From IMG/VR virus record IMGVR_UViG_3300009172_000041, positions 1-27,474 of that record: 27,474 bases of DNA; one strand, given 5' to 3'. Under the pieces are notes generated by a model that did no database searches, was not told where the DNA came from, and saw only the letters and a program-made list of their open reading frames with translations. Origin of the DNA: a virus. The translations under genes and the position numbers were made by a program. Positions 21-27,444 of this stretch are shown piece after piece (the stretch's first letter is position 1; each line of letters starts with the position of its first letter).

Positions 21-1475
21 ATGTCAGACTTTAAACATATTAACGAGTTTAGAAAAGGTTCAATTTTAAGTAAGATCAGTGAAGATCCAACTTATTTGAG
101 TTTCTTTATGATGTTTGATGCAATAGACAGAGAACATTCACCATTATTATCAGGACCAGCAGAGGAATATCTTAGACAATTTGTTGATCCTCCTGGATCA
201 ACGTCTGACAAACCTGGAAAACATGTTGCAAACTTACGAGCTTTCAAAAAAGTGTTACTTAAGATCAATAAAGAACTTCCATGGTTTTGGCAGAAACTAA
301 ATGGCTTAGAAGCTACACAAGAATATAAAGACATGTCTGAGCCATTTAATGGAGCAGAAAAACCAAAAATAGAAATTGAATGCCTAGAAGAGAATGTTGA
401 ATTAACAGCGTTAGGTTTAATGCAGCTTTACAGAACTGCAGTATATGATTATAATAGATTCGTAGAGGTTTTACCAAAAAATTTAAGACACTTTAGAGTT
501 TGGATCGTTATGTCAGAAGTTAGAACATTTCAACAAAGCGTTGGCGCTAGAGAGTTTGGTTTATATGGTAATTCAACAACTGCTGCGTCCGTGTCAACAC
601 CTTCGGGTTTAAGTCAAATCAAATCAGCTTTGGGTAAAGGCAGTGAAACACAGATTAAGTCGGTACCTGGTGGATTTGATGAGCCATTAGTAAAAAATTA
701 TTCGGCTGAGGCGAAACCTCACATCATGATAGAATTAGGTCATTGTGAATGGGAAACTGATTCTATAAAAGAAATGTTTTCTGATTTAAATAAACAACCT
801 GAACTTAGAAAACCTAAATTGAGCTTTTATTGGAACACATCTAGCATTACCAGTAATAAATTTGGACCTAACATCTCGAGTCCAGAAGCCTCACCTCTAA
901 TGCCTACTTCAAAGAAAGATGATGAGTTGTATCCCAATACTCCATTTAATCCACTTGCAAATATTCAAAATGCAATCAGTGATAAAGTTAATGGAATAGC
1001 AGATGGTCTAGTAAATAGATTTAATAATCTAAAAAACAGTTTACCGGGTCAGGGCAATAATCCAATGGGTAGAGTATATCCAGAAGGTTTAACTGGAGCT
1101 GCGGCTACATTGGCTGAAGCTGGAATGGATAAAGTTAAAGCTTTATTTATGGATAATGTTCATGGAGCTTCTGGAGCATTAGGAAGTTTAGGAGATATTA
1201 ATTCTGCTTTAGAAGCTGGTAGTATCAATGGTATTATGAATTTAGCTGGTCAATTATTTAAACCTAAGCCAAATAAACCAGCAAATGGTAATATGTCTCC
1301 ACATGGGGTATATGATCCAGCAATTGATAGTTCACCTGATGATTTTATTAATGAAAAGGTATATGATCCTATTGCACAACAACCAAATAGTCAACCAATA
1401 TCACCTGGTAGAATTCATGAACCAGGAGTAGATAGTAGTCCAGATAATAGTATTAATGATAATGTACACGAATAA
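21..1475 (+). CDS. Putative baseplate hub / tail-tube junction structural protein (484 aa)
   Basis: I do not recognise this protein by a diagnostic motif. It lies directly before, and overlaps by one base (TAATG), a gp5-like spike gene, so a hub or tube-initiator role (the position of T4 gp53/gp48/gp54-type proteins) is likely. Residues about 128-172 form a conserved-looking helical segment ending in NLRHFRVWIVMSEVRTFQ, and residues about 234-258 contain PHIMIELGHCEWE. This layout reminds me of tail-tube and baseplate-tube junction proteins of large myophages, but this is an impression only. From about residue 285 the protein becomes Gly/Ser/Pro/Asn-rich and probably disordered. It ends with two copies of a 22-residue repeat. 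The start is the first ATG after an A-rich leader (AGATAAATAATAC) with no Shine-Dalgarno. Translation of the next gene is probably coupled to this one. Confidence 0.45.
   Translation: MSDFKHINEFRKGSILSKISEDPTYLSFFMMFDAIDREHSPLLSGPAEEYLRQFVDPPGSTSDKPGKHVANLRAFKKVLLKINKELPWFWQKLNGLEATQEYKDMSEPFNGAEKPKIEIECLEENVELTALGLMQLYRTAVYDYNRFVEVLPKNLRHFRVWIVMSEVRTFQQSVGAREFGLYGNSTTAASVSTPSGLSQIKSALGKGSETQIKSVPGGFDEPLVKNYSAEAKPHIMIELGHCEWETDSIKEMFSDLNKQPELRKPKLSFYWNTSSITSNKFGPNISSPEASPLMPTSKKDDELYPNTPFNPLANIQNAISDKVNGIADGLVNRFNNLKNSLPGQGNNPMGRVYPEGLTGAAATLAEAGMDKVKALFMDNVHGASGALGSLGDINSALEAGSINGIMNLAGQLFKPKPNKPANGNMSPHGVYDPAIDSSPDDFINEKVYDPIAQQPNSQPISPGRIHEPGVDSSPDNSINDNVHE
1302..1472 (+). repeat. Two-copy 22-residue C-terminal repeat in the 484-aa protein
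   Basis: Copy 1 (bases 1302-1367) and copy 2 (1407-1472) encode aligned segments sharing the core P-x-[IV]-D-S-S-P-D, followed by I-N and V at fixed spacing; most other positions are conservative (Y/H, D/E, I/V). The copies are separated by a Gln/Pro/Ser linker, and copy 2 runs to the stop codon. The tail looks disordered and may be a flexible binding peptide. Confidence 0.7.
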
Positions 1476-2188
1476 TGGCAGATGAGCTTTTTCAAGATAA
1501 TTTAAGAGATTCGCATTGGTTAGGAGAAGTCGTAGTAAACGAAGATCCTTTACTTAATGGTAGATGTCGTGTTAAAGTTTATGGTAAATTTGATAAACTT
1601 GAAAACGATTCAATTCCATGGGCAACGCCCATGAATAGAGATGCAGTGGGTTCTCATCATGTACCAAGAGTTGGTGACATAGTTGCAGTTAGATTTGATA
1701 ATGGTAACATATATCATCCAGAATATTGGTTTCAAATAGATCAAAATGACGATTTAAAAACAGATATATTGGAGACATCTGATGCACCACAAGATGTTAT
1801 AAGTTTAGTATATGATGCTGAGCGAAATGTAAGAATATATCATTCTCCTGAGGATGGTTTGGTTATCACTCGCGGTAGTGGAGCTAAAGAGAGACCAATG
1901 ATACAAATAGACGAAGAAGGATTCATTAAGATAAGCACGGATGCGAAAATGTTCTTAGACTGTGGTGATATATTCGTTTCAAATGAAGGTGAACCAGGTG
2001 CAGATGAGACAGAACCAGCAGTTAGAGGGCAATCTCTACAAGATTGGTTACAAATGTGGTTAGACGATTATAATGCACATATTCACCCAACGGGAGTTGG
2101 ACCATCCGGACCACCGATGCCACCTACACCAGTAACCGTAGGTAAACTATCAAGTACACATATTAACTATCAACAAAAAGGTAAATAA
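1475..2188 (+). CDS. gp5: Baseplate central spike / hub protein, gp5-like OB fold, lysozyme-less
   Basis: This is the central spike that sits under the tail tube and is pushed through the outer membrane on contraction. Residues about 15-86 match the OB-fold domain of the gp5/gpV/VgrG family: HWLGEVVVNEDPLLNGRCRV, then the IPWATPM strand, the HHVPRVGDIVAVRF turn and YHPEYW. Residues about 105-165 give short strands that could trimerise. The C-terminus contains HIHPTGVGPSGPPMPPTP, a His/Pro-rich ending often seen in spike proteins of this family. T4 gp5 is 575 aa with a lysozyme domain between the OB fold and the beta-helix; this protein has 237 aa and no room for one, so it resembles the shorter P2 gpV/cyanophage type. 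The ATG overlaps the previous stop (TAATG). Confidence 0.85.
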   Translation: MADELFQDNLRDSHWLGEVVVNEDPLLNGRCRVKVYGKFDKLENDSIPWATPMNRDAVGSHHVPRVGDIVAVRFDNGNIYHPEYWFQIDQNDDLKTDILETSDAPQDVISLVYDAERNVRIYHSPEDGLVITRGSGAKERPMIQIDEEGFIKISTDAKMFLDCGDIFVSNEGEPGADETEPAVRGQSLQDWLQMWLDDYNAHIHPTGVGPSGPPMPPTPVTVGKLSSTHINYQQKGK

Positions 2189-4047: not shown

Positions 4048-4056
4048 AAAATAATA

Positions 4057-4068
4057 GGATATATAATA
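4057..4068 (+). promoter_or_regulatory. Candidate promoter element GGATATATAATA before the S1 gene
   Basis: The 45-base gap before the S1 gene holds GGATATATAATA, 24 bases upstream of the ATG. The same 12 bases occur in the 58-base gap before the 2732-aa gene (19197-19208), and a 9-of-12 match lies in the 56-base gap before the amidoligase-like gene (5406-5417). These are the three longest gaps in the window. The core resembles a TATAAT-type -10. No clear -35 or Bacteroidota TTTG box was found. The spacing would give a leader of roughly 15-20 bases. Confidence 0.35.
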
Positions 4069-4092
4069 TGTTACACCTTTAATATAAAATAA

Positions 4093-5385
4093 ATGAACAA
4101 CGAAAAAAACAAAAGAATTAGAATTGGCGAAACCAAAACTAATCAAACACCAGTTGAAGAACTAGACACAATTGTTGAAAACTTAAAAAAAGAGGAAGAT
4201 TCTGGACCTGAAGGTGCAGAATTCTTTGATGAAGCCGGAGAATTTGATTGGGATGCATTTGAAGCTACTTGCCCATCAAGAACGCGAAAACACAATCCAC
4301 ATATAAAAACACAGAATGGAGATAAAGTATTTTCTAGGGAAGTGTATGCTCAAGAAATGTATGACATTCTTTCAGCACATGACGAATCATTAGGAAATGT
4401 TATAACTATTCTAAACCCAGGAGAAATTCATGAGGGTAAAATATACGCAGTTAGTTCTGAGTTTATTAGTGTAGATATAGGTTACAGAGAATTAATATAT
4501 GTAAAATATGACAAAGAACCCGCAGATGTTCAGTCATTAAAACCAGGAGACGAGACTGCAGTATTAATTACTCAGCTAAGTAAAAACTCTCATGTACTGG
4601 GAAGTATTAATGGAGGTGTTAAACACAAGGTGTTTATGGATCTTAGGGAAGCTGTCGAATCGGGAGGAACTGCATGGATTGGTACAGTTACACACATGAT
4701 TGAAAACGGAGGTTACATGGTATTAATACAAGGAATTGAATGCTTTATGCCAGGATCACTAGCAGGAATTAATAAATTGCATGATTTTGGTTCTATTATT
4801 GGAACAGAAATGTATGTGGTTCCAGTGAGTTTCTCACCAGAACGAGGCACGTTGGTAGTTTCACACAGAAAATACTTACAAGCATTAATACCTAGTGAAT
4901 TAGAGTCATTAAAAGAAACACAGGGTGAAACACTTATAGGAAACGTAACAGGTACTGCTAAATATGGTGTATTTGTAGAATTTAACAAGTGTTTAACTGG
5001 AATGATACATAATAATGATTTAGATGAAGACACGTTAGCTAAATTTAAAGCTAGAGATATTAAACCAGGTGATGAAGTTTCATTTATGGTTAAAGATATT
5101 ATTAGTAATACTAAAATTACTCTAACACAAAAAGCTAATATAACGGTTAATCCTTGGTTAGACATACAATCAAGATATCAGATTCCTTCTGTAATACAGG
5201 CAACGGTAAAGACTAAGAAAGATTACGGTTTGTTTATTACAATAGAAGAGGGTGTGACTGGACTGCTACATGTTAGCGAATTGAGCGAAGAGGTAATGAG
5301 TGTATTTAAATCGGGAGATCCTATTACAGTACAGATTACCAGAATCGATGTTGACTCTATGAAAGTCTTCTTGAAAATGCCTTAA
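4093..5385 (+). CDS. rpsA-like: Phage-encoded ribosomal protein S1 homologue (four S1 domains)
   Basis: Bacterial S1 docks mRNA on the 30S subunit, which is most important when no Shine-Dalgarno is present. Four S1-type OB domains are visible at residues about 108-172, 192-258, 278-345 and 366-429. Domain 2 (GGYMVLIQGIECFMPGSLAG, ending VVSHRK) has the ribosome-docking S1 signature, matching the GG(F/M)xVxxxGIxAFLPGS pattern of cellular S1. Domains 3 and 4 (YGVFVEF..LTGMIH; DYGLFITIEEGVTGLLHVSEL) are typical RNA-binding repeats, with an NPW linker between them as in cellular S1. The acidic N-terminal 60 residues contain FDWDAFE, which resembles the N-terminal F-[ND]-W-x-x-F-E of flavobacterial S1 as I remember it. 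Cellular S1 usually has about six domains; this one seems to keep the first four. It has its own long leader and a candidate promoter inside a tail operon. Confidence 0.88.
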   Translation: MNNEKNKRIRIGETKTNQTPVEELDTIVENLKKEEDSGPEGAEFFDEAGEFDWDAFEATCPSRTRKHNPHIKTQNGDKVFSREVYAQEMYDILSAHDESLGNVITILNPGEIHEGKIYAVSSEFISVDIGYRELIYVKYDKEPADVQSLKPGDETAVLITQLSKNSHVLGSINGGVKHKVFMDLREAVESGGTAWIGTVTHMIENGGYMVLIQGIECFMPGSLAGINKLHDFGSIIGTEMYVVPVSFSPERGTLVVSHRKYLQALIPSELESLKETQGETLIGNVTGTAKYGVFVEFNKCLTGMIHNNDLDEDTLAKFKARDIKPGDEVSFMVKDIISNTKITLTQKANITVNPWLDIQSRYQIPSVIQATVKTKKDYGLFITIEEGVTGLLHVSELSEEVMSVFKSGDPITVQITRIDVDSMKVFLKMP

Positions 5386-5405
5386 TAACTATTGCAACGA
5401 GAGTG

Positions 5406-5417
5406 TGATATATATTG
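5406..5417 (+). promoter_or_regulatory. Candidate promoter element TGATATATATTG before the amidoligase-like gene
   Basis: This is the diverged third copy of the GGATATATAATA motif (9 of 12 bases), in a 56-base gap, 24 bases upstream of the ATG at 5442. That distance is the same as in the gap before the S1 gene. A weak inverted repeat (TGATAT ... ATATCA) overlaps it. The match is suggestive only, because the region is AT-rich. Confidence 0.28.
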
Positions 5418-5441
5418 AAACGGTAATATCATAATCTTAAT

Positions 5442-6752
5442 ATGCAAAAATTAACTATAGATTCTCCGAGAGAATCAATATTGAACGCAGCACTCATGGG
5501 TGTTGAGTTTGAATTCTATTCTGATCTCGATCTAGAAGTAACCAGAAAATCTCTGGCAAAGCTTCTAGATCGAAAGATTAGATTAGAGGATAAAGCACAT
5601 AGTGATTTTGAACCTTCAGCTGAAGAGTTTAAAATAGAACCAGATATGTCTGGTGGTAAAGGACTAGTAGAACTAGTGACTGGGCCAATCCCCTATAGAA
5701 ATGCCAGAATAATGGTTATTAAAGTGCTCGATTGGATATCTAAGAATGGGTATACCAATGATAGAGCATCAATACACATCAACTTATCATTTGATAAAAA
5801 ATATCTAGAGGATAAAGACACTGTCTTGAAGATGAATGTTCTTAAATTCATTTTAGAGTTTGACGAAAAACAAGTTTATAAGTTATTTCCGGATAGAGAA
5901 AAATCTGCGTATGCAAAAAGTGTTAAATGGGTGATGCCAAAATGGGAAGCATTTCATTTTGATGCCAATCAAATAGCTTCTAATAATTTTAAATTTGCCG
6001 ATACTAAATATTACGGAATAAACTTTTCTAAGAAGGAGAAGAATTATTTAGAGTTTAGATATATCGGTGGTGCGGATTATGAAAAGAAAGTTGATGATAT
6101 ATTATATCTAACTGAGAGTTTTTTAATGCAAATGTGGAAATCATGTAATGATGCCAGATTTAGTAGTGAAAATAAAATTGAACTTCAAAGAATTTTAAAT
6201 AGGAATAAACCAGTTTCTGATATGCTAAAAGATTACTCAGCGGTTTCAAAGAATTGGCCAGATATACAAATACTGACCGATTTACAAGACAATCCCACAA
6301 TCGTAAAGGTACACTGGGAGAGGTTTAAATTGAGAGTAATGGATTTATTAGTAAATGGATCAATGACTGAGGGTATTATTAATTATGACTCGGACTACGG
6401 TGCTGTTCAGATCAAGGATGGTAAATTCCCAACTGTGTATTTTTTAGAGAACTTTGAATTTATTGATTGCGAAATAGCGGGAAATGTAGATAATTCAAGT
6501 TTTTATAATTGCGATATATCTGGATCGGCTATCAAATGGGGTAGTTTATATAAAGGTACTAAAGTAAAAGAATCCAAGGTAGAATCTAGTTACACACACG
6601 GTAGTTGTGAGTTAACTAATTGTTATGTTGCTGGTCGTGATACCATGTTTAAAGGTAAAATGATAGGTGGTATATTCAGAGAAGGTTTTATGACAAACAG
6701 TGCTAGATTTGAAGACACTGAAATAGTAGTAAGTAAAAAAATAAAAGAATAA
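5442..6752 (+). CDS. Amidoligase-like (GS-fold COOH-NH2 ligase) protein with beta-helix-like tail
   Basis: Amidoligases join a carboxylate to an amine using ATP and have the glutamine-synthetase fold. Motifs in the expected order are: G20-V-E22-F-E24 on the first strand; LVELVTGP (E77), the acidic metal/substrate strand; the strand IHINLSF (H112, N114); YYGINF around 190-195; and YLEFRYIGG with E204 and R206. These suit the metal- and phosphate-binding residues of the family. Residues about 240-330 form a helical linker. From about 336 to 430 there are repeats such as FEFIDCEI, SSFYNCDISGS, CELTNCYVAG and ARFEDTEIV, which read as short right-handed beta-helix coils of the pentapeptide type, unusual as a fusion partner. 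The substrate is unknown: a peptidoglycan peptide, a virion protein or a small metabolite are possible. The start follows AATCTTAAT with no Shine-Dalgarno. The next gene begins one base after the stop. Confidence 0.6.
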   Translation: MQKLTIDSPRESILNAALMGVEFEFYSDLDLEVTRKSLAKLLDRKIRLEDKAHSDFEPSAEEFKIEPDMSGGKGLVELVTGPIPYRNARIMVIKVLDWISKNGYTNDRASIHINLSFDKKYLEDKDTVLKMNVLKFILEFDEKQVYKLFPDREKSAYAKSVKWVMPKWEAFHFDANQIASNNFKFADTKYYGINFSKKEKNYLEFRYIGGADYEKKVDDILYLTESFLMQMWKSCNDARFSSENKIELQRILNRNKPVSDMLKDYSAVSKNWPDIQILTDLQDNPTIVKVHWERFKLRVMDLLVNGSMTEGIINYDSDYGAVQIKDGKFPTVYFLENFEFIDCEIAGNVDNSSFYNCDISGSAIKWGSLYKGTKVKESKVESSYTHGSCELTNCYVAGRDTMFKGKMIGGIFREGFMTNSARFEDTEIVVSKKIKE

Positions 6753-6753
6753 A

Positions 6754-7596
6754 ATGAGTGAAATTAGAAGCGGTTCGAATAATGATCTTACAACTGGAAG
6801 GTATTTTGATCCTAATTGTTTAAATGCATTTTTAGAAGAATTAGGTGATGACATCACTGGAGCATGTATGGTACCTATTAATTTACCACAAAAAGAAATT
6901 ATTAATATAATCAAAAGAGCTAAAAAATGGTTCTATAAGAAGTATGAATATTCTGTAAAAGAAAACTATTATCATATACCACATTCTATATTTAGTACTG
7001 ATTATTTTAAAAGTCGTAGAACACTTAATCTACCTGGCCCTAGTTTAGATGGTGGAGGTGGAGTATATTCAGTATATGGATTATATGACCTTCAGTCAGG
7101 ATGGAATGGCGGTGGAGGCGGAATGGATGTAAGATTCGATTCTGGCTCTGATTTTTCTATGGACAGAATGCTGTTTAAAGGAATGTATGAAGGTGGAGGA
7201 ATGTCTGAAGCTGCAGAAGAATTACAATATTATGTATTGAATGCTTCTATGCAAGATTTAACTAGACAAATATTAAACAATCCTATTTCTTATAGTTACT
7301 CTAATTTAACTGGAGAATTAAAGTTCATGGGTGACACGCCGAAGGGTGATGTTATATTAGAATTATATGAAACTATACCTGATTGCGCGCTATACTCCGA
7401 TGAAATATTCTTTAGATATGTTAGTGCTAAAGTAAAACAATCCATTGGTTCTAAATTAGCGATCTTCAAGTTTGCACTACCAGGTAATGTAGATTTTGAT
7501 TACGATGCTATTAAATCAATGGGAGACGATGAATTATCTGCAATTGATGAAGAGATCAAGGGTGATGAAGGTGTTGACTGGATGATGCATTCGTAA
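6754..7596 (+). CDS. Putative neck protein, gp14-like (280 aa)
   Basis: This probably joins the head portal to the tail. The layout follows the gp14 neck family of T4-like cyanophages as I remember it: an N-terminal helical part (IIKRAKKWFYKKYEYSV, about 49-65), a HIPHSIF strand, a central variable part, and a C-terminal part where GDVILELYETI and a Tyr-Ser-Asp-Glu helix lead to KLAIFKFALPGNVDFDYDAIKSM and an acidic ELSAIDEEIKG. This parallels the family's ...KKFxGxxxPGxxxxxGxxIxxxAxxEI ending. Three glycine runs (about 99-102, 119-123 and 147-149) sit in the central part, which is unusual for a neck protein. It follows the amidoligase-like gene by one base. A different adaptor or baseplate role is the main alternative. 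Confidence 0.45.
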   Translation: MSEIRSGSNNDLTTGRYFDPNCLNAFLEELGDDITGACMVPINLPQKEIINIIKRAKKWFYKKYEYSVKENYYHIPHSIFSTDYFKSRRTLNLPGPSLDGGGGVYSVYGLYDLQSGWNGGGGGMDVRFDSGSDFSMDRMLFKGMYEGGGMSEAAEELQYYVLNASMQDLTRQILNNPISYSYSNLTGELKFMGDTPKGDVILELYETIPDCALYSDEIFFRYVSAKVKQSIGSKLAIFKFALPGNVDFDYDAIKSMGDDELSAIDEEIKGDEGVDWMMHS

Positions 7597-7618: not shown

Positions 7619-7975
7619 ATGGAATTATATATAAAATATCTTAGTGATCCTAACTACGACGAAACTCAAGTTCAGACTAATGATGAAATAGAAATGTTAA
7701 TCACACAGATTCAAACTGTTTTATTTACAAATACTGGTGAAGTTATGGGAAGTCATAATTTTGGGTGTAACTTAGAAGAACTTATATATGATTTTGGATC
7801 TAGTGCACACAACATAAAAGCTGTAATTACAGATCAATTGAATCAATATTGTCCGCTTGCTAGTAAATATAACTTGGAAGTTAAGATAGATTTTGTAAAA
7901 GGCGAGGTTAGAGATATGGCTTTCATAGATATTACGATAGATAGTAGATATGCTATAAAAATAAGCATGCAGTAA
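7619..7975 (+). CDS. gp25: Baseplate wedge protein gp25-like
   Basis: This is the small wedge protein of the GPW/gp25 family, which seals the inner baseplate ring and starts sheath assembly. Its length (118 aa) is close to T4 gp25 (132 aa). Residues about 25-60 carry the family pattern: an amphipathic helix (IEMLITQIQTVLFT), the conserved turn GEVMGSHNFGCNLEELIYDF in place of the usual E-x-x-x-R-x-x-(F/Y)-G-x-x-L, then a helix ending in DQLNQYCPLASKYN. Two strands follow (VKIDFVKGEV; FIDITIDSRYAIKISM). The gp6-like gene follows 17 bases downstream, the same pairing of gp25 and gp6/J as in T4, P2 and type VI secretion systems. The start is the ATG directly after CATAAATAA. Confidence 0.88.
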   Translation: MELYIKYLSDPNYDETQVQTNDEIEMLITQIQTVLFTNTGEVMGSHNFGCNLEELIYDFGSSAHNIKAVITDQLNQYCPLASKYNLEVKIDFVKGEVRDMAFIDITIDSRYAIKISMQ

Positions 7976-7981
7976 AAAAGT

Positions 7982-7993
7982 ATACATAAATAA
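7982..7993 (+). promoter_or_regulatory. ATACATAAATAA leader element at the gp6-like start
   Basis: This is an exact 12-base copy of the element at 7607-7618, here overlapping the ATG at 7993 by one base. It contains CATAAATA (7 of 8 against the T4 late promoter). With the motif this close, a transcript started from it would lack the start codon, so I favour a translation-leader role. Confidence 0.28.
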
Positions 7994-9822
7994 TGGCAGA
8001 ATTAAAATTTTTAAGTACAATTAGAACCGGGGCAAATGCTATAAAGGCAGACGCTAGGACGTATATTTCTAGGGTTTACAACAGGGCAGAAACTCTGTTT
8101 ACTGTTGCATCGCCGTTCGCTCAGATAATAAGCGTCTTATCAGAAATGATGGATCTTATTATGTTCTATATAGAGGATTCTGTTGTAGAACAAAACATAT
8201 ATACTGCTCAACAACCTGAGTCAATATATGGTATGTCTAGATTAACTGGCCATGACTCTACGAGAGGTTTTGCATCAACTGGTGAAATTACATTTAGATG
8301 GAAGCCTGGTGCAGATATGGCAAAGATTGCTGGAAATACACTAAACATAGAAGGTAGATCAAAACTTAAATTCGAAGCAAATGGTTTAACCTATACATTA
8401 TTAAATTCAGTAGATAGATATAAATTACAGAAAACAAATTACAGTTCATTTAAAACTGCTATCATTCAAGGTGAATTTGAGTCACAAACGGTAACATCTA
8501 ACGGTAACAAATTACAATCATTTAATATAAATACCGGTGGAATAACTGATCACAGTAAAGTTAGTGTTAGTGTCAATGGTGAAAAGTGGATGAAGCATGA
8601 ATCTCTATATGATCTCTTATCTGATGAAAAGGCATATTTAATTAAAACCGGAATTAGTGGAGGATTAGATCTTTATTTTGGAAATAAATCGTTTGGTATG
8701 ATTCCACCTTTAGGTGCTAGTATTGAAGTAGAATATGTAAAACATGTTGGTATTGCGGGTAATTTAGATGATTCGCCGGATTTAGCAATCAAATGGGATG
8801 GATCTGGTACAGATTCGAACGGAACAGAACATGATTTGAATGAATTTTTAGATGTGACTATTACTTCTTCACCTAAAATGGGTAGTGATAGAGAGAATAC
8901 AAAATTCACTAAAATAATGACACCATTGGCTAGTAAATCATTCGTACTGGCAACGCCAGATAATTATGAGTATTTCTTATCAAGATACAATATGTTTTCG
9001 TACATAGATGCATATAACACAACAGATGATCAATACTTGGATGACGATAATGTTATTTATATTTTCGCGGTTCCGGATATGAAAAAGAAATTAGCTAAAA
9101 ATCAAGATTATTTTAGCATACCTCAGGAAGAAATGTTCTTTGATCAAGGTGAATATGATGCAATGCAAAAGGTACTCGAAGACAGTGGGCAGCAGATGGT
9201 AACTACGGAAGTTGTATTTGTTAAACCAAAAGTGAGGTATTATAGTATTGACATCAATATTAGATATTTCGAAGGTTATACTAAAGAAGAAATTTATACA
9301 AATGTTAGAACTAAACTTTCAGATTATTTACTAAATATCACTCGAAGAGATAAATTACCTAAATCTGATATCATTTATATATTAGAAGATGTTGATGGAA
9401 TCGATGCAGTAAACATTAGGTTTATTTCAGAGACAGAAGAGACAGCTTTAAAGAATGGATATTTTGAATCTATTAACGTTAGCGTTGTTCCACAAGAGCC
9501 AGTAACGCTGGAGACTATTGGTAATGGAAAACAAAAATACGTTTTCTTTAAGAAAATAGAAGATGTAAAGGTGGTTCCAGTTGATAAGTCAACTGATATA
9601 CCTTACAGTATAAAAGGTCTAGATCAATGGGGTGATATTATCATGGAAAAAGAAGAGGTTGCAGTATTCAGAGGTGGATGGCAAGATAGAGATGGAGATG
9701 TAATAGAGGATGATGTATTACTAAATGCTGAAGCTGCAATTAGTATAAATTTTGAAGCAGACCCTGTTCCTAGAACTATATACACTAGAGTACAGTCTGG
9801 AAATAGAAAAGCACTTAAATAA
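7993..9822 (+). CDS. gp6: Baseplate wedge protein gp6-like (baseplate J family)
   Basis: gp6 dimers, together with gp7 and gp25, form the wedge core and the iris-like ring of the contractile baseplate. The N-terminal helical part (residues about 35-90, SVLSEMMDLIMFYIEDSVVE, then TAQQPESIYGMSRLTGH and the G-x-I-T-F strand) matches the N-terminus of myophage gp6/J proteins. Residues about 300-480 show the J-type pattern: an FVLATPDNYEYFLSRY segment, an acidic strand VIYIFAVPD, a helix before VTTEVVFVKPKVRYYSIDINI, then GYTKEEIYTNVRTKLSDYL, and SDIIYILEDVDGIDAVNIRF. The last 110 residues are an extra C-terminal strand-rich domain. The size (609 aa) is close to T4 gp6 (660 aa). The stop overlaps the next ATG (TAATG), so the following small gene is probably translationally coupled. 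Confidence 0.85.
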   Translation: MAELKFLSTIRTGANAIKADARTYISRVYNRAETLFTVASPFAQIISVLSEMMDLIMFYIEDSVVEQNIYTAQQPESIYGMSRLTGHDSTRGFASTGEITFRWKPGADMAKIAGNTLNIEGRSKLKFEANGLTYTLLNSVDRYKLQKTNYSSFKTAIIQGEFESQTVTSNGNKLQSFNINTGGITDHSKVSVSVNGEKWMKHESLYDLLSDEKAYLIKTGISGGLDLYFGNKSFGMIPPLGASIEVEYVKHVGIAGNLDDSPDLAIKWDGSGTDSNGTEHDLNEFLDVTITSSPKMGSDRENTKFTKIMTPLASKSFVLATPDNYEYFLSRYNMFSYIDAYNTTDDQYLDDDNVIYIFAVPDMKKKLAKNQDYFSIPQEEMFFDQGEYDAMQKVLEDSGQQMVTTEVVFVKPKVRYYSIDINIRYFEGYTKEEIYTNVRTKLSDYLLNITRRDKLPKSDIIYILEDVDGIDAVNIRFISETEETALKNGYFESINVSVVPQEPVTLETIGNGKQKYVFFKKIEDVKVVPVDKSTDIPYSIKGLDQWGDIIMEKEEVAVFRGGWQDRDGDVIEDDVLLNAEAAISINFEADPVPRTIYTRVQSGNRKALK

Positions 9823-19245: not shown

Positions 19246-22200
19246 ATGAGTGCAATTCAAAGTATACTAATTATAGATACAGGTCAAACAGACGCTGTAT
19301 CTGCTTGTTCCTTTTCGGGAGCAGGCTCAACGGGAGTACAATTTAATAGCGCATCACTTAAACCAGTTAATGGCGATATTCTTTATACTGATTACCAAAA
19401 CATTGTATTTAATGGTGGTGATCAATTCTTTAAGGAAACTGGCGCTAACGGTACAGAAACTTTTAAAGTTGACAGTGCCGGTGTAGTTTCTGAAGTAGCG
19501 ACATGTGTTATTCCAGATATTACTGCTCCTGTTATTACAGTAACTGGAAACAATCCTGTTACTGTTGAATTAGGAACGACTTATACAGACGCTGGAGCTA
19601 CCGCTGATGGTGGAGAAACAGTTACTTCTACTGGAACTGTTGATACCTCAACCATTGGATCGTATACCATTACTTACTCGGCTACTGATGCTGCTAATAA
19701 TACAGGAACTGCTAATAGAACAGTGAATGTGGTTGATACTACTGCTCCTGTTATTACTGTAACTGGAAACAATTATGTTACTGTTGAATTAGGGACGACT
19801 TATACAGACGCTGGAGCTACCGCTAATGGTGGAGAAACAGTTACGGCAACAGTTACGCCAACCGGAACTGTTGATACCTCAACCGTTGGAGCGTATACCA
19901 TTACTTACTCAGCTACTGATGCTAATAGCAATACAGGAACTGCAACAAGAACAGTGAATGTAGTTGATACTACTGGACCTGTTATTACTATTACTGGTAA
20001 TAATGCACCTACAATAGAGGCTGGTACCAGTTATACAGACGTTGGAGCTACCGCTGATGGTGGAGAAACAGTTACTTCTACTGGAACTGTTGATACCTCA
20101 ACCGTTGGAACTTACGATATTACATATACGGCAACAGATGCTAATAACAATACGGGAACTGCAACAAGAACTGTTACAGTTGTAGATACAACTCCACCAA
20201 TTATAACACTAAACGGTGACGCAACATTAAATATAAATGTGAATAGTACATATGCCGATCCAGGTTATACTGCTATAGATATTCACGATGGGGATATTAC
20301 TTCAAATGTTCTTGTCACAGGAACAGTAAATACTGCTGCTGTAGGAACATATACGATTAAATATAACGTCAGTGACGCTGTTCCACTCCCTGCAGTTGAA
20401 GTGACTAGAACTGTAAATGTAAATGATTCTTCCGCGCCAATTCCTGTAGATGTTGCATATGATGTAGCATGGAATCAAACATTGGCAATAACTTTAGAGG
20501 CTAATGACAACGTAGACACTACTACAGCTTTAACGTATACTATAATAACTCCACCAACTAGAGGTAATCTTACTGTTGTGGATAACAATGCTGTTATTTA
20601 TGAACACACAGCGAGCACTATTGGACCAGATTTTTTCACGTTTAAAGCAACGGATACAGAATTGAACGAATCTCTTATTGGTACAATAACACTGAATCCT
20701 TTAAATGATGCACCAGTCCTCAGTGATCCACATCCTTCTACTGGCACGATATCGGTAGATCAGAACTCATCTGTTACTTTTAATGTAACAGGTTCTGATG
20801 CAGATGGTGATCAAATTAATTGGATTATAACAACAAACCCAATAAATGGTATAATAACCAACCCGGACGCAACTGGTAATACACTTAGCTTGAAATATAC
20901 CCCAACGCTTGGTTATTTTGGACCTGATAATTTAAAATTAAAGGGAATTGATAGCAAAGGAGCTGAATCTCAAATATTGGATGTTTCTATTACGGTTGCA
21001 CAGGTACCATGGTTTGACATGAAGATTGGATCTTTTGGTGCTGACGCAGTATCGTTGTGTATTGCAAGCAGAAATGGAACAGCGTATGGTAATACAATAC
21101 AAGCAAACAATGTCGACCAATTAGCTGAAGGAGATACTATTTATTATGATGAATCTTTAAATCAAAAGGTTACTTCTAATAGTTCTAGTTCTCAATGGAT
21201 ACCTATTTCGGATGACGATACATCTAAGGTAGTAAAAATAGGTTTAACCGGAGAGATATTACAAATAGTAGCATGTAATGATACAGCAGTTTCTAAATAT
21301 ACTGAAGTTAAATATGCTACTAATACCATATCATATTGTGATGGTGATTTTCAAAGCATCAAAGTATATTACAAGTATGACGGGGTTGGTTCACCAAATA
21401 ATGGCATAAAGTCCCTAGAAGACTTGGTCAGTGCAGGAACCCCGCTTTTTAGCAGTGAGTTAGATTCTAATCTTTATACAATCACGGATGGAACTAGTTC
21501 ATCAGGTTTTATTGATAGTGGTATTTATAGTGATATTAATCAAAATGTAACTTATTATAAAAGATCATCTAGTAATACATGGGGAACAAATGGAGGTGTT
21601 GCTCAGTACACATGGGAATGTGATGGTGAAGATGTCAATTATACGTTTAGTTTGTCAAATATTAATAAATCTAGTATAGATGATCCTAATTTAAATCAGT
21701 TCTGTGCAACAGAAGCTGATCATTTAAACATACTGGATATATGGTATAATAGACCAGTCGATGTTGCACACTTATCATTAAAGGATCTAGCGAGATACAA
21801 TGTGCTCATATACAAATCCGAGACGGGTGCACAAACCGAAGATCAAGATGATTTATTTGAATCAAATATATTTTCAGATGAAGACGGTTACTTAGTATGG
21901 GATAATAAAGGGGATAATATAAATAACAATTGGTATGGTTATGATATCGATGGAAGATTAACAACTGGACTTGCGATATCTAATTATGGTAAATGTGATA
22001 ACTATGACAAACCAAGCATATCACCGGGCATAGTTAGGGAAAATACACCAACATCAAATGATATCAATGTATTCTATGGTTTTTACTCATGTGAGCCTGA
22101 GATTATTGGGCCAGGACACAATAATGGCGGCCTCGAGGTATTAGCTTGGCCAGTGTATATTATAGATGGTTTACATACAAACAAATCTGGTGATCAAGGA

Positions 22201-25200
22201 AGTTATATAAAGGACTTTACAGATACATTGTCTTTTGGAGATACTATCAATTCAAGTAATTTTGATAGTTGTTTAGAATATGCATTTGTGATAGAAAGTG
22301 AAAATATTGACACTGCTGTTTTACTAGTAAAAGATAGATTAATAGAAAAACAAACACCTGTAGTTTCTGATGGATTAGACATAGGAATAAGCAGCGAATC
22401 TATAATAGAGGTTTATCCTAAAGCTGATTACAAGTCATGTATCATTGATGATAAAATTAAAATCAGTGAAACATATACATTTCCTGTTATTAGCGGATAT
22501 GATTCTAGAAAGGCTGGTCCTAATTTTAATACACAAGTTAATTATGAGTTAGACAATGTCGCTAAACCATTGTTGAGAACAAATCCTAAATTATCTGGTA
22601 ACGTTAAGATAGTTACTAGTTCTGATGGGTCAATATTTTTAGAGAGCATTAGTGCGACAAAAACTTTAGCCTCAACACAATACAAGAAATACCCTATTAG
22701 CCCTAATGGAAATTATGCAAATGATGTTTCTGGGTTTTTTAAAGCCAATGGAACTCCATCTGATTTAATTTACTTAACTAAAAGGCAAGAATCTGATTTA
22801 ACGGTTCTTGATTCTTATGATAAACAAATAGAAGAAGAATATCAATATGGTACTTCTTATAGTTATTCTAAAAATTATGATGAAAAATTAAAGATATTTG
22901 CTCCGATATGGTCTGATAACAACATGCCAAAGAATTTTGTAATATTTAAGGTTGATAATCCAACAGGAGTTGACGCTGATATAGACGACGCTGGTAATTT
23001 TACTAGAGTTCAAGATTTGTTAAAGAATGCTGAAATAATAAAAACGTTTGATTTAACAAATGAATCAAATCTAGGAAAATACATCAGGAATCATGTACAA
23101 CAAGAAACATTTCCTAAGTCACCGATTACAGTTTCTTTTGGTAAAAATGAAGTAACAAATTATAATGGTATTGATTTAAACTCAGGTGAATTAACTAGCA
23201 AGGGCGAGTATATCTACAAAGATTTTGTTGAAACAGATAAACCTCTTATTGAGGCTAATGATTTCATAACTGACGGGTTTAAAAGAAACAACATATTATG
23301 TGCTAATTTAATAAACTTAGAATTTTTATTTGATGATGATACTTCAGAAGACTACAGTGTTAATAGATACTTTGGTTTATACGTGGATGATATAGATTCA
23401 GGAACAGGTGAAATATCTTCTATTACTAATAACGTTATTACGTTTAGTGAACTTAATTCTCTGGTTGATCCTAACGAAAGGTCTACTGCAATTCCGTCAA
23501 ACAAACAGATGACAACTACACCAACATTGGGTTATGTAAACATCAATGGTATATTCTATAAGATTTCTAACGAAGGTGTTTATGATTCTATCAAATCTGA
23601 GGTAAAAGTGGAAGATTCAACTAGAAATATAGAATCTACTATTGGGATTTCACATAATGGTAGTTCTGTTAATTTAACCAATAACGAAGACGTGGGTTAT
23701 GATTTTGTTAAAATGACAGTAATTGACACACCTGACAGCAGCGACAAAATTGCAGTAATAGAATCTAGAGAAGAGGTATATAAATTTACGTTTATAAAAC
23801 ACACTCCTGGAGAAAGTTTAAAATTAAACATAGGAGATTCAACGGCAAATTATGTGTTAGAATTTATAACAGGAAATAGTTTTACAGGCACGGTATCAAG
23901 CATTACTAGTAATTGGAATGCTTTAGGATTATCTGATTATTTGGAGATTACAGTAGATTATGAATCTAGTTCGTTTTTCATATCTGAAAAGTTTACTAAT
24001 TTAGGTGATTTGAACATGTATATTTCTGGAGCAACAAGCTCTATTATAAGAGTTGATCAAATTCAAACCAATGTCAATATTCAAAATAATACTTATTCTG
24101 CCAACTATACTTTAGATAAAGGTACATATAGCGGACAACAATTTTCTAGTCAAGGTAATACTGGCGAAATCGCATCCTCGATTGCAGCCGCTATCCATAA
24201 CGATGACAGTAATTTAGACGCATATAATATAGGATCAGACGTTTGGATTAAATCTAGAGTAGCTGGATACAGACTGATGCAACATGTTGTGTTAGTTAAC
24301 AAGTTAAATGTTATAGATTTTATTAAAGTAGAAAACGAAGACGTTTATAATTTATTAAAATTAAGAAAGGGAACTGGAACTGTACTTGATCAATGGAGAG
24401 CACATTACTTGAGTGGTGGACATTCTTCTTCTAAGTCAGTATATATTGATAATGAAACATTAAGTGAAATATCAATAGGTGACTCTTTGGAGACAAGATA
24501 TAACGGTGTTTATAATAAAGTTTTAGATATAGTTGAAGATATTAGTAATATTGATTCTGAAAAAACTAAACTAATATTAGAAGATAAATCTGACATTAAG
24601 GATGGTGAAGCTAGAGTATTTAATCAAAACGTGGTTAGGCTTGGTTTATTCTCAGCATATGACATATATGATATGAATTTTGATTTTTACGATACTTCAA
24701 ATTCTGACTTAAAAGAACTTGAATTTGAAACTAGAGAAAATATTGATTATGAACCATATGAAAACTCAATATTAAAAATAGATCCAATAACCGGCGAGTT
24801 TGACACTGCACTGGAAGCAAGTGATATATTTGACAATGATTATTCATTACAACCTGTTGATTATTTTTCAAACCTTTCCGGTATATTATCTGAAGAATCA
24901 ACGAATGAAGAGCTATCTGAAAGAATAACTAGTGAATTTGATAGATTAAAAGAGAATCAGTTAAAGGAGTTTGCTACAAATTCCAGAATAGTGCCAAATA
25001 TAAACAAATGGGTATTGAAAGATACATTGACTGTTAGAGATCAACCTTATTATTTAAACACTAATGAAGTTTTTGGAAGAACTAACTTTGCACCAGATTT
25101 GTCTGCTACTAGTAGAAATAAGGCTGACATGACACATGAATGGTTTTATATGGATAAAAAACCAAAGTATTTAAAGTATGACGAATTAAATGAAACGTTT

Positions 25201-27444
25201 TCATATATTAATTATATTGAGGATTTTGAATTAACATCTGATTTATTTAAAAGTACTAAAAATGATTACTTTGATAAATTTATGATAACTGAAGGTTTCG
25301 AAAAGCATTTAAATGAAGAAGATCTAGGTGACATTTATAATAAGTTTGGGGAGTATACTAGTGGTTATCTAAATAAAGATGATGTTAACAATACGTTCTT
25401 TAAAACTAATTTAAAAAAGAAGTATACCTTGATAGACGGTGGTGATACTAAATCGTTTGCAAGTACTGTTTTTAAAGGATTAAAGTTTGTATTAAAGAAC
25501 AGAAAGGAGTTTACTAATAAAACGGCGTTAGACTTTGTTAAAAACAGTGAATTTAATGGATACAAGTTTAGTATTTTATTGAAGACTAATACTGATAGCA
25601 ACACAAACGATATAGATTTTGAGATTATTCAAAATAAGAAGTTTAAATTCGTAATATTTTTTATTAATTTAAATATAAGTGATTATTGGATTAAGGGCAA
25701 CATGAACAGAAAACTGTTATATGAATTAAATCATAAAGTAGTGTATGATCACGTAGCTGAAGATTATATTTATGCTAATACATCGTTTGACGGTGCGCTT
25801 AATTGGAATCAAGCAGATTTTAGTGATAATTCACCATATATAATAGATGGTATTAACCATTTTGATGGAAGCGAGCCCGTATTTGATGATCAAATATTAT
25901 TGAATGAAAATGGATTATATGGAGATGTTATAATGGATTTATATCCAAATACTCCGGGCAATACATTATATAAATTCTCAATATATTCTGTTGTTGATAG
26001 TCGTACAATTAAAGTTGTATCTAAACCTGTAGAAGTAAATAATCCATCAGTTGAACTAGACGTTCAGTTTCTACCTAATTTTATTCAAAAACAAATTAAA
26101 TATTATTATGCTGACGGAGGTACAAATATACATAAATCTATATTAGAAAAACTTTCTATCAATAGTGTTGCTAGTTTAATTAACCTGAATGATGATAGTA
26201 TTACATATACAACTGTTAACGAAGATGATACTATTACTAATAATAGGTTTACTGTAAACATAGAAGATGGTACAGAAATAGTAAAATATGCCAACCTTTC
26301 AATAGAAGAAGATAATGACAAACCAAAGAGTTATAAATTATTTAAAGGTATTATAGGTTATAATCTAGTAGAATCTAGAGATGCATTATATTATCCGTTC
26401 TTAATTAGACACAGTGGAGCGTACACTGTTGATTTCACACCAGTAATAACATTCACTGATATGTATACTCACTTTAAATCTAATAGAGTTCAATCAACAA
26501 TTGACTACCGAGAAGCAGGATTCGAAAGTTTAATTTACAAGCACTCTATTATTAATGAGCACGAACTAGATACTGCAAAATCATATTATAACAGATATAA
26601 CAGGTGTGGAACTACATTTAATTTAGGGTTTATACAAGATAATAACAAACATGATTTGAATTGGGGAGTTATTAAGAATCATTTTTATCACAAGGTAAAT
26701 GAAATTAATCCAAGTGGAATAACTAAACTTACTAGATCTTCAGATAAACTGCCGCTATACCCATTAATTGATGAAATAACTATTGCATCAAAAGATGTTA
26801 ATGTATTTAGATCTTCATGGGACTCTGGTTATTACACTAGAGCTTATTCTAGTGGTAAAACAGAACTAGTTCCAGGGACATTAAATAATACCGAAGAACG
26901 ATCATATTTAGCATCTACTATGATGAAGGTTAAAGATGAATATGATATCACGTCATTCACATATCAATCAGTTGATAGTCAAGCCGCGCTAGATAAAATT
27001 CTTAAAAACTCTACAAACGAAAGTGAGGTAGTATTCTTTGAGGATAAAAAACAAATAGTGGCTGACTTTTATGTAACTGATTCTGCGGTACGCTTATTAA
27101 AAAATGATGGAGTACTTGATAGAATTCAAAGATATGTATCATCTCAGAATTCTGCAGGGGATAAAACTACAGTTTCAGATGATGCTGAATTTTATATAAA
27201 TAAAAATATTATTGAGCAGTTTGTTGTAGATTCTATATCATTATATACAAAAAGATTCAAGGGCAGTTCTAGTAGTATAATAGATACTTCAGATGCTAGC
27301 TTGATTCTTTCTTCAGGATTTTCCCCCGATAATAATTTTGCATATAAACCGCATAAACAAAAGCCTATGAATTTTAGGTTGATATATAATAAAAGATTAG
27401 GATATTCTTACGACATTAAACCTATGATAAAAATAAAGTCATAA
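19246..27444 (+). CDS. Giant virion protein with Ig-like array and cysteine-bounded domains (2732 aa)
   Basis: This is likely a distal baseplate or fibre protein that reaches the cell surface. A 90-residue N-terminal domain bounded by Cys21 and Cys87 is followed by four tandem bacterial Ig-like (HYR/DUF5011-type) repeats at residues 93-165, 166-242, 243-315 and 316-394 (APVITVTGNNPVTVELGTTY, TDAGATADGGETV, YTITYSATDAANNTGTA), then two cadherin-like domains (about 395-585; PTLGYFGPDNLKLKGIDSKG). A second copy of the N-terminal domain follows (Cys605-Cys677), then more Cys-bounded segments to about 1009. The remaining 1700 residues are acidic, Asn/Asp/Tyr-rich and strand-heavy, with no motif I recognise, including the segment APIWSDNNMPKNFVIFKVDN. 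There is no signal peptide, which argues for a virion protein and not a secreted host adhesin. The ATG follows TTTAAATAA. Confidence 0.65.
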   Translation: MSAIQSILIIDTGQTDAVSACSFSGAGSTGVQFNSASLKPVNGDILYTDYQNIVFNGGDQFFKETGANGTETFKVDSAGVVSEVATCVIPDITAPVITVTGNNPVTVELGTTYTDAGATADGGETVTSTGTVDTSTIGSYTITYSATDAANNTGTANRTVNVVDTTAPVITVTGNNYVTVELGTTYTDAGATANGGETVTATVTPTGTVDTSTVGAYTITYSATDANSNTGTATRTVNVVDTTGPVITITGNNAPTIEAGTSYTDVGATADGGETVTSTGTVDTSTVGTYDITYTATDANNNTGTATRTVTVVDTTPPIITLNGDATLNINVNSTYADPGYTAIDIHDGDITSNVLVTGTVNTAAVGTYTIKYNVSDAVPLPAVEVTRTVNVNDSSAPIPVDVAYDVAWNQTLAITLEANDNVDTTTALTYTIITPPTRGNLTVVDNNAVIYEHTASTIGPDFFTFKATDTELNESLIGTITLNPLNDAPVLSDPHPSTGTISVDQNSSVTFNVTGSDADGDQINWIITTNPINGIITNPDATGNTLSLKYTPTLGYFGPDNLKLKGIDSKGAESQILDVSITVAQVPWFDMKIGSFGADAVSLCIASRNGTAYGNTIQANNVDQLAEGDTIYYDESLNQKVTSNSSSSQWIPISDDDTSKVVKIGLTGEILQIVACNDTAVSKYTEVKYATNTISYCDGDFQSIKVYYKYDGVGSPNNGIKSLEDLVSAGTPLFSSELDSNLYTITDGTSSSGFIDSGIYSDINQNVTYYKRSSSNTWGTNGGVAQYTWECDGEDVNYTFSLSNINKSSIDDPNLNQFCATEADHLNILDIWYNRPVDVAHLSLKDLARYNVLIYKSETGAQTEDQDDLFESNIFSDEDGYLVWDNKGDNINNNWYGYDIDGRLTTGLAISNYGKCDNYDKPSISPGIVRENTPTSNDINVFYGFYSCEPEIIGPGHNNGGLEVLAWPVYIIDGLHTNKSGDQGSYIKDFTDTLSFGDTINSSNFDSCLEYAFVIESENIDTAVLLVKDRLIEKQTPVVSDGLDIGISSESIIEVYPKADYKSCIIDDKIKISETYTFPVISGYDSRKAGPNFNTQVNYELDNVAKPLLRTNPKLSGNVKIVTSSDGSIFLESISATKTLASTQYKKYPISPNGNYANDVSGFFKANGTPSDLIYLTKRQESDLTVLDSYDKQIEEEYQYGTSYSYSKNYDEKLKIFAPIWSDNNMPKNFVIFKVDNPTGVDADIDDAGNFTRVQDLLKNAEIIKTFDLTNESNLGKYIRNHVQQETFPKSPITVSFGKNEVTNYNGIDLNSGELTSKGEYIYKDFVETDKPLIEANDFITDGFKRNNILCANLINLEFLFDDDTSEDYSVNRYFGLYVDDIDSGTGEISSITNNVITFSELNSLVDPNERSTAIPSNKQMTTTPTLGYVNINGIFYKISNEGVYDSIKSEVKVEDSTRNIESTIGISHNGSSVNLTNNEDVGYDFVKMTVIDTPDSSDKIAVIESREEVYKFTFIKHTPGESLKLNIGDSTANYVLEFITGNSFTGTVSSITSNWNALGLSDYLEITVDYESSSFFISEKFTNLGDLNMYISGATSSIIRVDQIQTNVNIQNNTYSANYTLDKGTYSGQQFSSQGNTGEIASSIAAAIHNDDSNLDAYNIGSDVWIKSRVAGYRLMQHVVLVNKLNVIDFIKVENEDVYNLLKLRKGTGTVLDQWRAHYLSGGHSSSKSVYIDNETLSEISIGDSLETRYNGVYNKVLDIVEDISNIDSEKTKLILEDKSDIKDGEARVFNQNVVRLGLFSAYDIYDMNFDFYDTSNSDLKELEFETRENIDYEPYENSILKIDPITGEFDTALEASDIFDNDYSLQPVDYFSNLSGILSEESTNEELSERITSEFDRLKENQLKEFATNSRIVPNINKWVLKDTLTVRDQPYYLNTNEVFGRTNFAPDLSATSRNKADMTHEWFYMDKKPKYLKYDELNETFSYINYIEDFELTSDLFKSTKNDYFDKFMITEGFEKHLNEEDLGDIYNKFGEYTSGYLNKDDVNNTFFKTNLKKKYTLIDGGDTKSFASTVFKGLKFVLKNRKEFTNKTALDFVKNSEFNGYKFSILLKTNTDSNTNDIDFEIIQNKKFKFVIFFINLNISDYWIKGNMNRKLLYELNHKVVYDHVAEDYIYANTSFDGALNWNQADFSDNSPYIIDGINHFDGSEPVFDDQILLNENGLYGDVIMDLYPNTPGNTLYKFSIYSVVDSRTIKVVSKPVEVNNPSVELDVQFLPNFIQKQIKYYYADGGTNIHKSILEKLSINSVASLINLNDDSITYTTVNEDDTITNNRFTVNIEDGTEIVKYANLSIEEDNDKPKSYKLFKGIIGYNLVESRDALYYPFLIRHSGAYTVDFTPVITFTDMYTHFKSNRVQSTIDYREAGFESLIYKHSIINEHELDTAKSYYNRYNRCGTTFNLGFIQDNNKHDLNWGVIKNHFYHKVNEINPSGITKLTRSSDKLPLYPLIDEITIASKDVNVFRSSWDSGYYTRAYSSGKTELVPGTLNNTEERSYLASTMMKVKDEYDITSFTYQSVDSQAALDKILKNSTNESEVVFFEDKKQIVADFYVTDSAVRLLKNDGVLDRIQRYVSSQNSAGDKTTVSDDAEFYINKNIIEQFVVDSISLYTKRFKGSSSSIIDTSDASLILSSGFSPDNNFAYKPHKQKPMNFRLIYNKRLGYSYDIKPMIKIKS
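19273..19509 (+). repeat. Cys-bounded domain, copy 1 (in the 2732-aa protein)
   Basis: Residues 10-88 contain DAVSAC (Cys21), then GDILYTD, then FKV..AG.V...VATC (Cys87). The same order of motifs recurs in copy 2 after the Ig array. I know of no named family for it. Confidence 0.6.
19522..20427 (+). repeat. Four tandem bacterial Ig-like repeats (219, 231, 219 and 237 bases)
   Basis: The units start at 19522, 19741, 19972 and 20191. Unit 2 is 12 bases longer because of a TVTP-type insertion. Bases 19581-19659 (unit 1) and 20031-20109 (unit 3) differ at only two of 79 positions. Units 1 and 2 are also close, while unit 4 is diverged. Each encodes the T-x-P-x-I-T-V ... G-T-x-Y-x-D-x-G ... G-x-Y-x-I-x-Y-x-A-T-D pattern of surface Ig-like domains. 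Confidence 0.9.
20428..21000 (+). other. Two cadherin-like domains after the Ig array
   Basis: Residues 395-585 read as two tandem cadherin-like or Big-type domains. The first has EANDNVDTTTALTYTI and FFTFKATD, the second SVTFNVTGSDADGDQINWII and YTPTLGYFGPDNLKLKG with SKGAES. Such domains commonly extend adhesins and fibres; calcium binding is possible through the SDADGD-type acidic loops. Confidence 0.6.
21025..21279 (+). repeat. Cys-bounded domain, copy 2 (in the 2732-aa protein)
   Basis: Residues 594-678 repeat the copy 1 pattern: DAVSLC (Cys605), GDTIYYD, VKIG.TGEI, IVAC (Cys677). The Cys-Cys spacing is 72 residues against 66 in copy 1. The two copies bracket the Ig/cadherin block. Confidence 0.6.
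21337..22272 (+). repeat. Three further diverged Cys-bounded segments
   Basis: Cysteine pairs at residues 698/792, 820/917 and 949/1009 bound segments with a similar order of a Leu-rich stretch (SLEDLVSAGTPLF; LSLKDLARYNVLIY), a central aromatic Trp/Tyr segment and a Gly before the closing Cys. The similarity to copies 1 and 2 is weak and could be coincidental in part. Confidence 0.35.

Follow-up and report, generated by a model that had tools for sequence, protein, structure and literature searches.

The window (a whole IMG/VR viral record of 27,474 bases, itself a fragment) encodes at positions 4093–5385 a protein that, as judged by homology, is a ribosomal protein S1 homologue, and the viral bS1 clade to which it belongs is apparently a core gene of its phage group. 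We consider it fairly probable that this viral bS1 delivers A-rich phage mRNAs devoid of Shine–Dalgarno (SD) sequences to the host 30S subunit late in infection. What is new here is a clade of S1 genes in a tail operon, its pairing with phage bS21 and a conserved leader; phage rpS1 itself was already known, albeit doubtfully.

A four-domain homologue of ribosomal protein S1

All 14 main open reading frames of the window lie on the plus strand. For the frame considered here, the initial annotation had proposed a ribosomal-type S1 homologue with four S1 domains, and both points were borne out. Profile searches (Pfam, NCBIfam) returned the ribosomal-S1 type and not the PNPase/RNase type: the Pfam S1 match had an E-value of 3.7e-22, and the best NCBIfam model was 30S ribosomal S1 NF004952 (E 2.2e-47; residues 80–429 on profile positions 24–373). 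Even with this best model, the protein missed the equivalog cut-off for 30S S1 (161.7 versus 524 bits), and we therefore name it a viral bS1 homologue, not rpsA. In a phmmer search of PDB sequences, residues 97–425 aligned to residues 10–342 of E. coli-type bS1 (best E 3.2e-38), and the PDB match improved to 1.6e-61 with a profile built from 28 phage homologues. A PNPase- or RNase-type S1 protein was ruled out, since only S1/OB-type domains passed the Pfam cut-off; no catalytic phosphorylase or RNB domain was found beside them in the window protein. None of the PHROGs v4 families matched it (E <= 0.001), and 67 of 68 clade members were likewise without a match, the remaining one matching phrog_13933 (nuclease, 3.3e-5).

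The AlphaFold2 model of the protein, obtained with 68 homologues in the alignment (mean pLDDT 80.2, pTM 0.58; an earlier model with a shallower alignment had a pLDDT of 67.4), contains four OB folds, at residues ~110–171, 195–257, 281–345 and 366–428. Domains D1–D4 of bS1 are thus all present and colinear, as judged from profiles, phmmer and structure superposition. The top Foldseek matches of the model were bS1 in 30S complexes. VIA-align placed model residues 86–430 on bS1 1–347 (Z 15.0, 326 residues) with an overall rmsd of 14.8, which is high because the domains are hinged; single-domain superpositions on bS1 gave an rmsd of ~2. Helix 86–100 of the model, which is separated by a linker from the disordered tail (residues 1–39), coincides in the superposition with the first residues of bS1 and thus takes the place of the helix by which the E. 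coli protein is anchored to uS2. The GIECFMPGS signature of domain 2 had been taken for the part that docks on the 30S subunit, an assignment that has to be abandoned: the docking of bS1 relies mainly on domain 1 together with its preceding helix (D'Urso 2023, PMC10123108).

Comparison with Bacteroidota bS1 (rpsA) revealed the same D1–D4 order, the same type of N-terminal FDWxxFE segment, the same helix before domain 1, a K/R at the uS2 pocket and most of the D3/D4 RNA-face residues. The resemblance of FDWDAFE to flavobacterial S1 noted in the initial annotation is real, its counterparts in Bacteroidota bS1 including FDWDAYE and FDWDSFE. By contrast, the phage S1 is only 24–30% identical to Bacteroidota bS1, has an extra linker of 25–30 residues and carries LAGINKL as its D2 signature in place of QIDVKPIRD or similar; its gene sits in a tail operon. 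Bacteroidota bS1 has six domains (PMC6705787), and domains 5–6 are missing from the window protein, which has four domains in 430 residues.

Table 1. Features of the S1 gene, its leader and its neighbours (positions in the window)
Feature	Positions	Strand	Basis or remark
Neighbour A2, gp5-type OB baseplate protein	1475..2188	+	PF04717, PHROG 37871; conserved neighbour
S1 leader: box and A-rich stretch with pyrimidine tract ACACCTTTAA; candidate autoregulatory site	4048..4092	+	conserved in relatives
Promoter-like box GATATATAATATGTTA	4058..4073	+	of 80 loci, exact in 56 and one base off in 23
Viral bS1 homologue, S1 domains 1–4	4093..5385	+	ATG start, 430 aa, 0 internal stops
Residues 1–39, predicted disordered, basic start KNKRIRIG	4093..4209	+	pLDDT <50; alignment
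FDWDAFE segment, residues 51–57	4243..4263	+	counterparts in Bacteroidota bS1
Helix, residues 86–100, candidate uS2 anchor	4348..4392	+	AlphaFold2 model and VIA-align
S1/OB domain 1, residues 110–171; R132 at the place of E. coli K43	4420..4605	+	alignment, AlphaFold2
S1/OB domain 2, residues 195–257; GIECFMPGS and phage-specific LAGINKL	4675..4863	+	alignment, AlphaFold2
GIECFMPGS, residues 214–222	4732–4758	+	translation
S1/OB domain 3, residues 281–345	4933..5127	+	Pfam S1, AlphaFold2
S1/OB domain 4, residues 366–428	5188..5376	+	Pfam S1, AlphaFold2
Neighbour B1, weak amidoligase match	5442..6752	+	PF12224, 22.1 bits vs cut-off 22
Neighbour B2, head-tail adaptor, Ad2-like	6754..7596	+	PHROG 211
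Neighbour B3, gp25-like	7619..7975	+	PF04965, E 0.0019, below cut-off
Neighbour B4, gp6/Baseplate_J-like wedge protein	7993..9822	+	PHROG 219, PF04865

On the ribosome, bS1 contacts uS2 through F5, F9, Q7, E10, K43 and F79, and its mRNA pocket comprises K117, F120 and F130 (D'Urso 2023, PMC10123108). We scored these positions in 111 distinct phage S1s (out of 171) and compared them with 22 of 48 aligned Bacteroidota bS1s. The initial annotation had named a lack of uS2-binding residues among its grounds against the ribosomal assignment; for the most part, though not entirely, the residues contacting uS2 and RNA are retained. The position of K43, the lysine that enters the uS2 zinc pocket, is occupied by R (89) or K (17) in 106 of the 111 phage S1s, the window protein having R; F79 is not kept (it is variable among Bacteroidota bS1 too), and K117 of the OB2 pocket is found in just 7 of 111. 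F130 is kept in all 111 proteins, as is an aromatic residue (Y or F) at the F120 position, and the register of the F5/F9 aromatic pair differs between the sequence and structure alignments. On the RNA face, Phe and His are kept in 111/111 and 95/111 phage S1s for D3, and in 95/111 and 106/111 for D4. Y85, A86, Q87 and Y90 are invariant across 39 marine sequences, and the S1s of Lak phages have Ser at the K43 position and are missing domain 4. Between the window S1 and 11 relatives, dN/dS was 0.06–0.20, with synonymous sites near saturation, and on this measure the phage S1 is under purifying selection. The residue pattern appears to be that of a protein still selected for uS2 and RNA contact, with variations of its own.

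Gene order, distribution and descent

The description of the locus as a structural (tail) gene cluster held: the S1 gene is flanked by genes for an OB baseplate protein, an Ad2-like adaptor, a gp25-like protein and a gp6-like wedge protein. B1, by its marginal amidoligase match, would be an enzyme-like protein adjoining the baseplate genes. The very large distal proteins of the window matched solely PHROGs of unknown function; the 2,732-aa protein at 19246–27444 had a partial match to one such PHROG and nothing else, and a relative of it sits closely upstream of S1 in LR745206, LR756502 and L217–L225.

An IMG/VR scan with the window S1 gave 172 relatives, of which 80 were fetched, representing 46 distinct proteins of 427–435 aa (the neighbour table for these S1-selected marine loci covers 41 of the 80). 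To sample without bias towards S1, we picked loci by gene B2 and fetched 80 of at least 394 B2 relatives, five of these contigs (L280, L320, L325, L327, L331) being also reached by other queries. S1 was present in 75 of the 80 B2-selected loci, the remaining 5 being too short upstream to tell, so that none was demonstrably without S1; the gene therefore behaves as a core gene of the phage group. The initial annotation had called a four-domain S1 in a structural operon uncommon, which no longer applies: wherever the loci of this large phage group could be tested, the gene was there. B1 was found in all 80 loci, A1-A2-S1-B1-B2-B3-B4 was the sole order as far as the contigs reach, and all 490 genes detected share one strand. 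That so wide a radiation of phages keeps a viral bS1 in the tail operon suggests that, in these phages, control of initiation belongs to the core functions and not to the accessory ones; it also gives a meaning to a PHROG-less tail-operon gene of many uncultivated aquatic phages.

Distant S1 relatives occur in Lak and other huge phages, and a scan with a huge-phage S1 gave 9 loci. In a 462-kb phage (L083), A1-A2-S1-B1-B2 is kept at 33–50% identity; a viral scan with the baseplate protein of this phage returned five loci, two of them useful. In L084, L089 and L217–L225, S1 lies instead near a B10-like giant tail-cluster gene located upstream, and no homologue of the searched tail neighbours was found beside S1 in L085–L088. 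Five phages (Tenacibaculum phages pT24 and PTm1, Flavobacterium phage MaF61, Chryseobacterium phage MA9V-1 and Sphingomonas phage PAU) have the wedge gene and gave no Pfam S1 match; S1 therefore marks one branch and is dispensable in neighbouring lineages. Note that the huge phage LR745206 encodes a second S1-domain protein (L346:1883–3787, minus strand), which is an RNase R/II-type RNB exonuclease, and that the second S1 frames of G139 and G141 are similar to it in size.

Proteins resembling rpS1 were reported in a few huge phages and linked to the rarity of SD sequences, true rpS1 being 'difficult to confirm' (Al-Shayeb 2020, PMC7162821). They probably belong to the same family as the window protein: homologues of the latter are found in LR-numbered huge-phage records and Lak phages, and form one clade with it. 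Whereas that report dealt with a few genomes, all >200 kb, the gene is found here in many phages, including contigs of ~27–165 kb, with a core position in the tail cluster, a leader and a pairing with bS21. The corresponding passage of Mizuno 2019 (PMC6375957) set the S1 domain aside as ambiguous. A 2026 paper describes a phage-encoded bS1 in the Microcystis cyanophage PhiMa05 (PMC13157829); by its description, this protein was traced to a Vampirovibrio-like donor and is accompanied by large-subunit proteins. We found no earlier account of the tail-operon S1 clade, its leader or its bS21 pairing in the open-access literature.

In the phylogeny against cellular and viral S1 proteins, the phage S1s formed one clade, whose joins to Bacteroidota and to the outgroup were weakly supported. 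A first tree of 79 rows placed its 28 phage S1s together (100/100) on a very long stem, and a second tree of 38 rows with more distant phages again gave a phage clade (SH-aLRT 100). This clade, composed of marine phages together with Lak and other huge phages, lies outside the sampled Bacteroidota bS1s, which grouped without phages in both trees, with weak support (64/0; 84). Deep joins were poorly supported, with an AU p of 0.55 for keeping phages and Bacteroidota together at the outgroup join; the tree, in which long branches meet, does not show the donor of the phage S1. The best matches in 117 of 118 Bacteroidota genomes had 24–30% identity (E <= 1e-15), one genome giving nothing at that limit. 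A recent capture from the host was rejected on the grounds of this low identity and of the single, long-stemmed phage clade. Host contamination was also rejected for the S1 family of the window protein, because its members lie on phage contigs with conserved tail genes and because of the same distance to Bacteroidota bS1s. The hosts are probably marine Bacteroidota, as judged from the FDWxxFE segment and from relatives in Prevotella, Tenacibaculum and Flavobacterium phages. Three records looked bacterial and were used as outgroup only: L092 (an Acinetobacter 'phage'), which has cmk, himD and pyrF as neighbours of rpsA, and the unverified faecal clones L090/L091, with S1 behind an IspH-like domain judged by eye.

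The S1 leader and translation signals

The initial annotation had credited the gene with its own leader and a candidate promoter, in agreement with the occurrence of GATATATAATATGTTA ahead of S1 in 79 of the 80 related loci (56 exact, 23 with a single base change). The box is kept even where the immediate upstream sequence diverges. In 8 large records, a degenerate form of the box is found once each at 0 mismatch, always as the copy before S1 (contig coordinates), and G009 holds one additional 1-mismatch copy. In the window alone, a 3-mismatch search found 5 boxes against a mean of 2.87, with 15 of 100 shuffles reaching 5; this count is not above chance, and the case for the box therefore rests on the relatives. 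Sigma-70-type sites around the S1 gene numbered 5 (7.1 expected). The box is not universal, since the exact GATATATA lies within 80 nt in just 47 of 91 leaders of distant relatives. For the core GATATATAA, the large relative G006 has 23 forward and 0 reverse copies (Markov mean 6.85, both strands together), and the large relative G009 has 15 reverse and 0 forward copies (Markov mean 2.1, both strands together). This core looks like a phage-wide promoter element of several genes, with an extended version at S1. The strand bias of GATATATAA follows the coding strand in both genomes (L240–L254).

A pyrimidine tract, mostly 18–21 nt before the ATG, is present in 53 of 87 distinct S1 leaders versus 62 of 770 other leaders, for a motif defined after inspection of the leaders and among related leaders that are not independent. 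Cellular bS1 represses its own synthesis (PMC6705787), which makes an autoregulatory site in the phage S1 leader a natural guess; the conserved leader may let the phage S1 tune its own synthesis. Downstream of S1, the spacer before B1 (5386–5441) contains a second GATATATA box (5407–5414) inside an imperfect inverted repeat; relatives keep this repeat, its arms being altered in L063/L066/L076/L078. This spacer was rejected as a structured RNA, as it gave just a weak consensus hairpin (-1.2 kcal/mol) with one pair changed on both sides.

Translation signals were examined in the same two large relatives. Of the 139 genes in G006, 2 have an SD-like word upstream (2.6% at random places); none of the 135 genes in G009 has one (0.3% at random places). 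The upstream regions are A-rich in both. In Bacteroidetes, binding of S1 to unstructured leaders has been proposed as a substitute for SD pairing (PMC3155529). When bS1 was added to a Flavobacterium system, initiation on one SD-less mRNA increased approximately two-fold, and that on the rpsU mRNA changed little (PMC9976891).

Proposed role and alternative readings

The phage S1 likely acts on the ribosome. In the mechanism that we infer, with respect to host identity, 30S docking, replacement of host bS1, mRNA preference, timing and autoregulation alike, a long-established four-domain derivative of ribosomal S1, encoded among tail genes, would use domain 1 and the N-terminal helix to attach to uS2 on the 30S subunit of its Bacteroidota host, either displacing the host's own bS1 or sitting next to it. 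Domains 2–4 would hold the A-rich, SD-less phage leaders at the exit channel, raising the initiation of phage mRNAs at the time of bulk virion protein synthesis. Some of these phages have a bS21 of their own, which would act at the same exit-channel site, and the S1 leader would possibly let the viral bS1 adjust its own synthesis, like cellular bS1. Counted against this reading are the missed equivalog cut-off, the loss of K117 in all but 7 of 111 proteins, the unplaced F5/F9 pair, the Ser and the missing domain 4 of the Lak proteins, the five S1-less relatives, the weak effect of bS1 on the rpsU mRNA and the absence of bS21 from 27 of 48 records and from the window.

The conserved leader with its extended box would also suit an RNA-binding regulator that operates off the ribosome, without 30S docking, and binds phage late transcripts, including its own leader, so as to repress, chaperone or stabilise them. 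The pyrimidine tract (53/87 S1 leaders against 62/770 others, the motif being chosen after inspection) points the same way, as does the better conservation of the D3/D4 RNA-face residues compared to some ribosome-side residues. We nevertheless consider such a regulator unlikely: nothing in this role would explain why domain 1, the helix that precedes it and the uS2-pocket K/R have been retained, and a one- or two-domain S1 protein would be enough for it. The predicted anchor, when combined with four domains versus the six of Bacteroidota bS1 (PMC6705787), would also be compatible with a decoy that occupies uS2 or host mRNA, blocks host bS1 and shuts off host translation. However, the gene lies in the tail cluster and is therefore probably expressed late, which would make the shut-off late as well; moreover, most D3–D4 RNA-face residues are kept, and four domains are the usual number for the bS1s of Firmicutes and Actinobacteria (PMC6705787). 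A decoy thus seems very unlikely to us.

We give even less credence to a tail or virion protein that reuses S1 domains, or to an assembly factor. It would account for the fixed place between tail genes in every testable locus and for the B10-like giant gene upstream of S1 in L084, L089 and L217–L225, but not for four domains that all correspond to those of bS1, in the same order, and retain most of the RNA-face residues, nor for L085–L088, where S1 is found with none of the searched tail neighbours, nor for the phages that share the wedge gene and have no S1.

The viral bS1 reading can be extended to bS21. Like the phage S1, phage bS21 (Mizuno 2019, PMC6375957; Chen 2022, PMC9723584) is a phage-borne version of a small-subunit protein of the exit channel; it is tied to late structural genes and expressed late with them (Chen 2022, PMC9723584). 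It is a different protein, and the curated bS21 phages are said to be without other ribosomal protein genes, whereas 21 of our 48 S1-bearing records (9/22 + 5/11 + 7/15) encode both bS1 and bS21. These figures are counts and not rates, many of the 48 records being fragments and some near-copies. bS21 was not seen in the other 27, many of them fragments, nor in the window record; none of the 5 S1-less wedge-gene relatives showed it either, a sample too small for comparison. The bS21 of E. coli forms a bridge between OB1 of bS1 and the 16S rRNA (PMC10123108), and Tyr54 of Bacteroidia bS21 redirects the 16S 3' tail (PMC9976891). A Tyr is found at this position in all 16 phage bS21s read (of the 21 records), which were compared with four host sequences. 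A phage making both bS1 and bS21 could remodel the whole exit channel. It is possible, if rather doubtful, that the two form a dedicated SD-independent initiation module, in which viral bS1, joined in many genomes by a viral bS21 that carries the anti-SD-sequestering Tyr, would rebuild the host 30S exit channel into specialised late ribosomes preferring phage leaders, with viral bS1 regulating itself through its leader. In any case, a natural four-domain S1, together with a matching bS21 in some phages, provides test material for SD-less initiation.

Finally, the phage bS21 may escape the SD-based autoregulation of the host, as judged from the start regions of the genes. The four host rpsU genes read (L342–L345) have a GGGAGG/GGAGG-type SD upstream, and most phage bS21 genes read (L093–L101, L335–L341) are without SD, LR756501 (L094) having AAAGGAGG.
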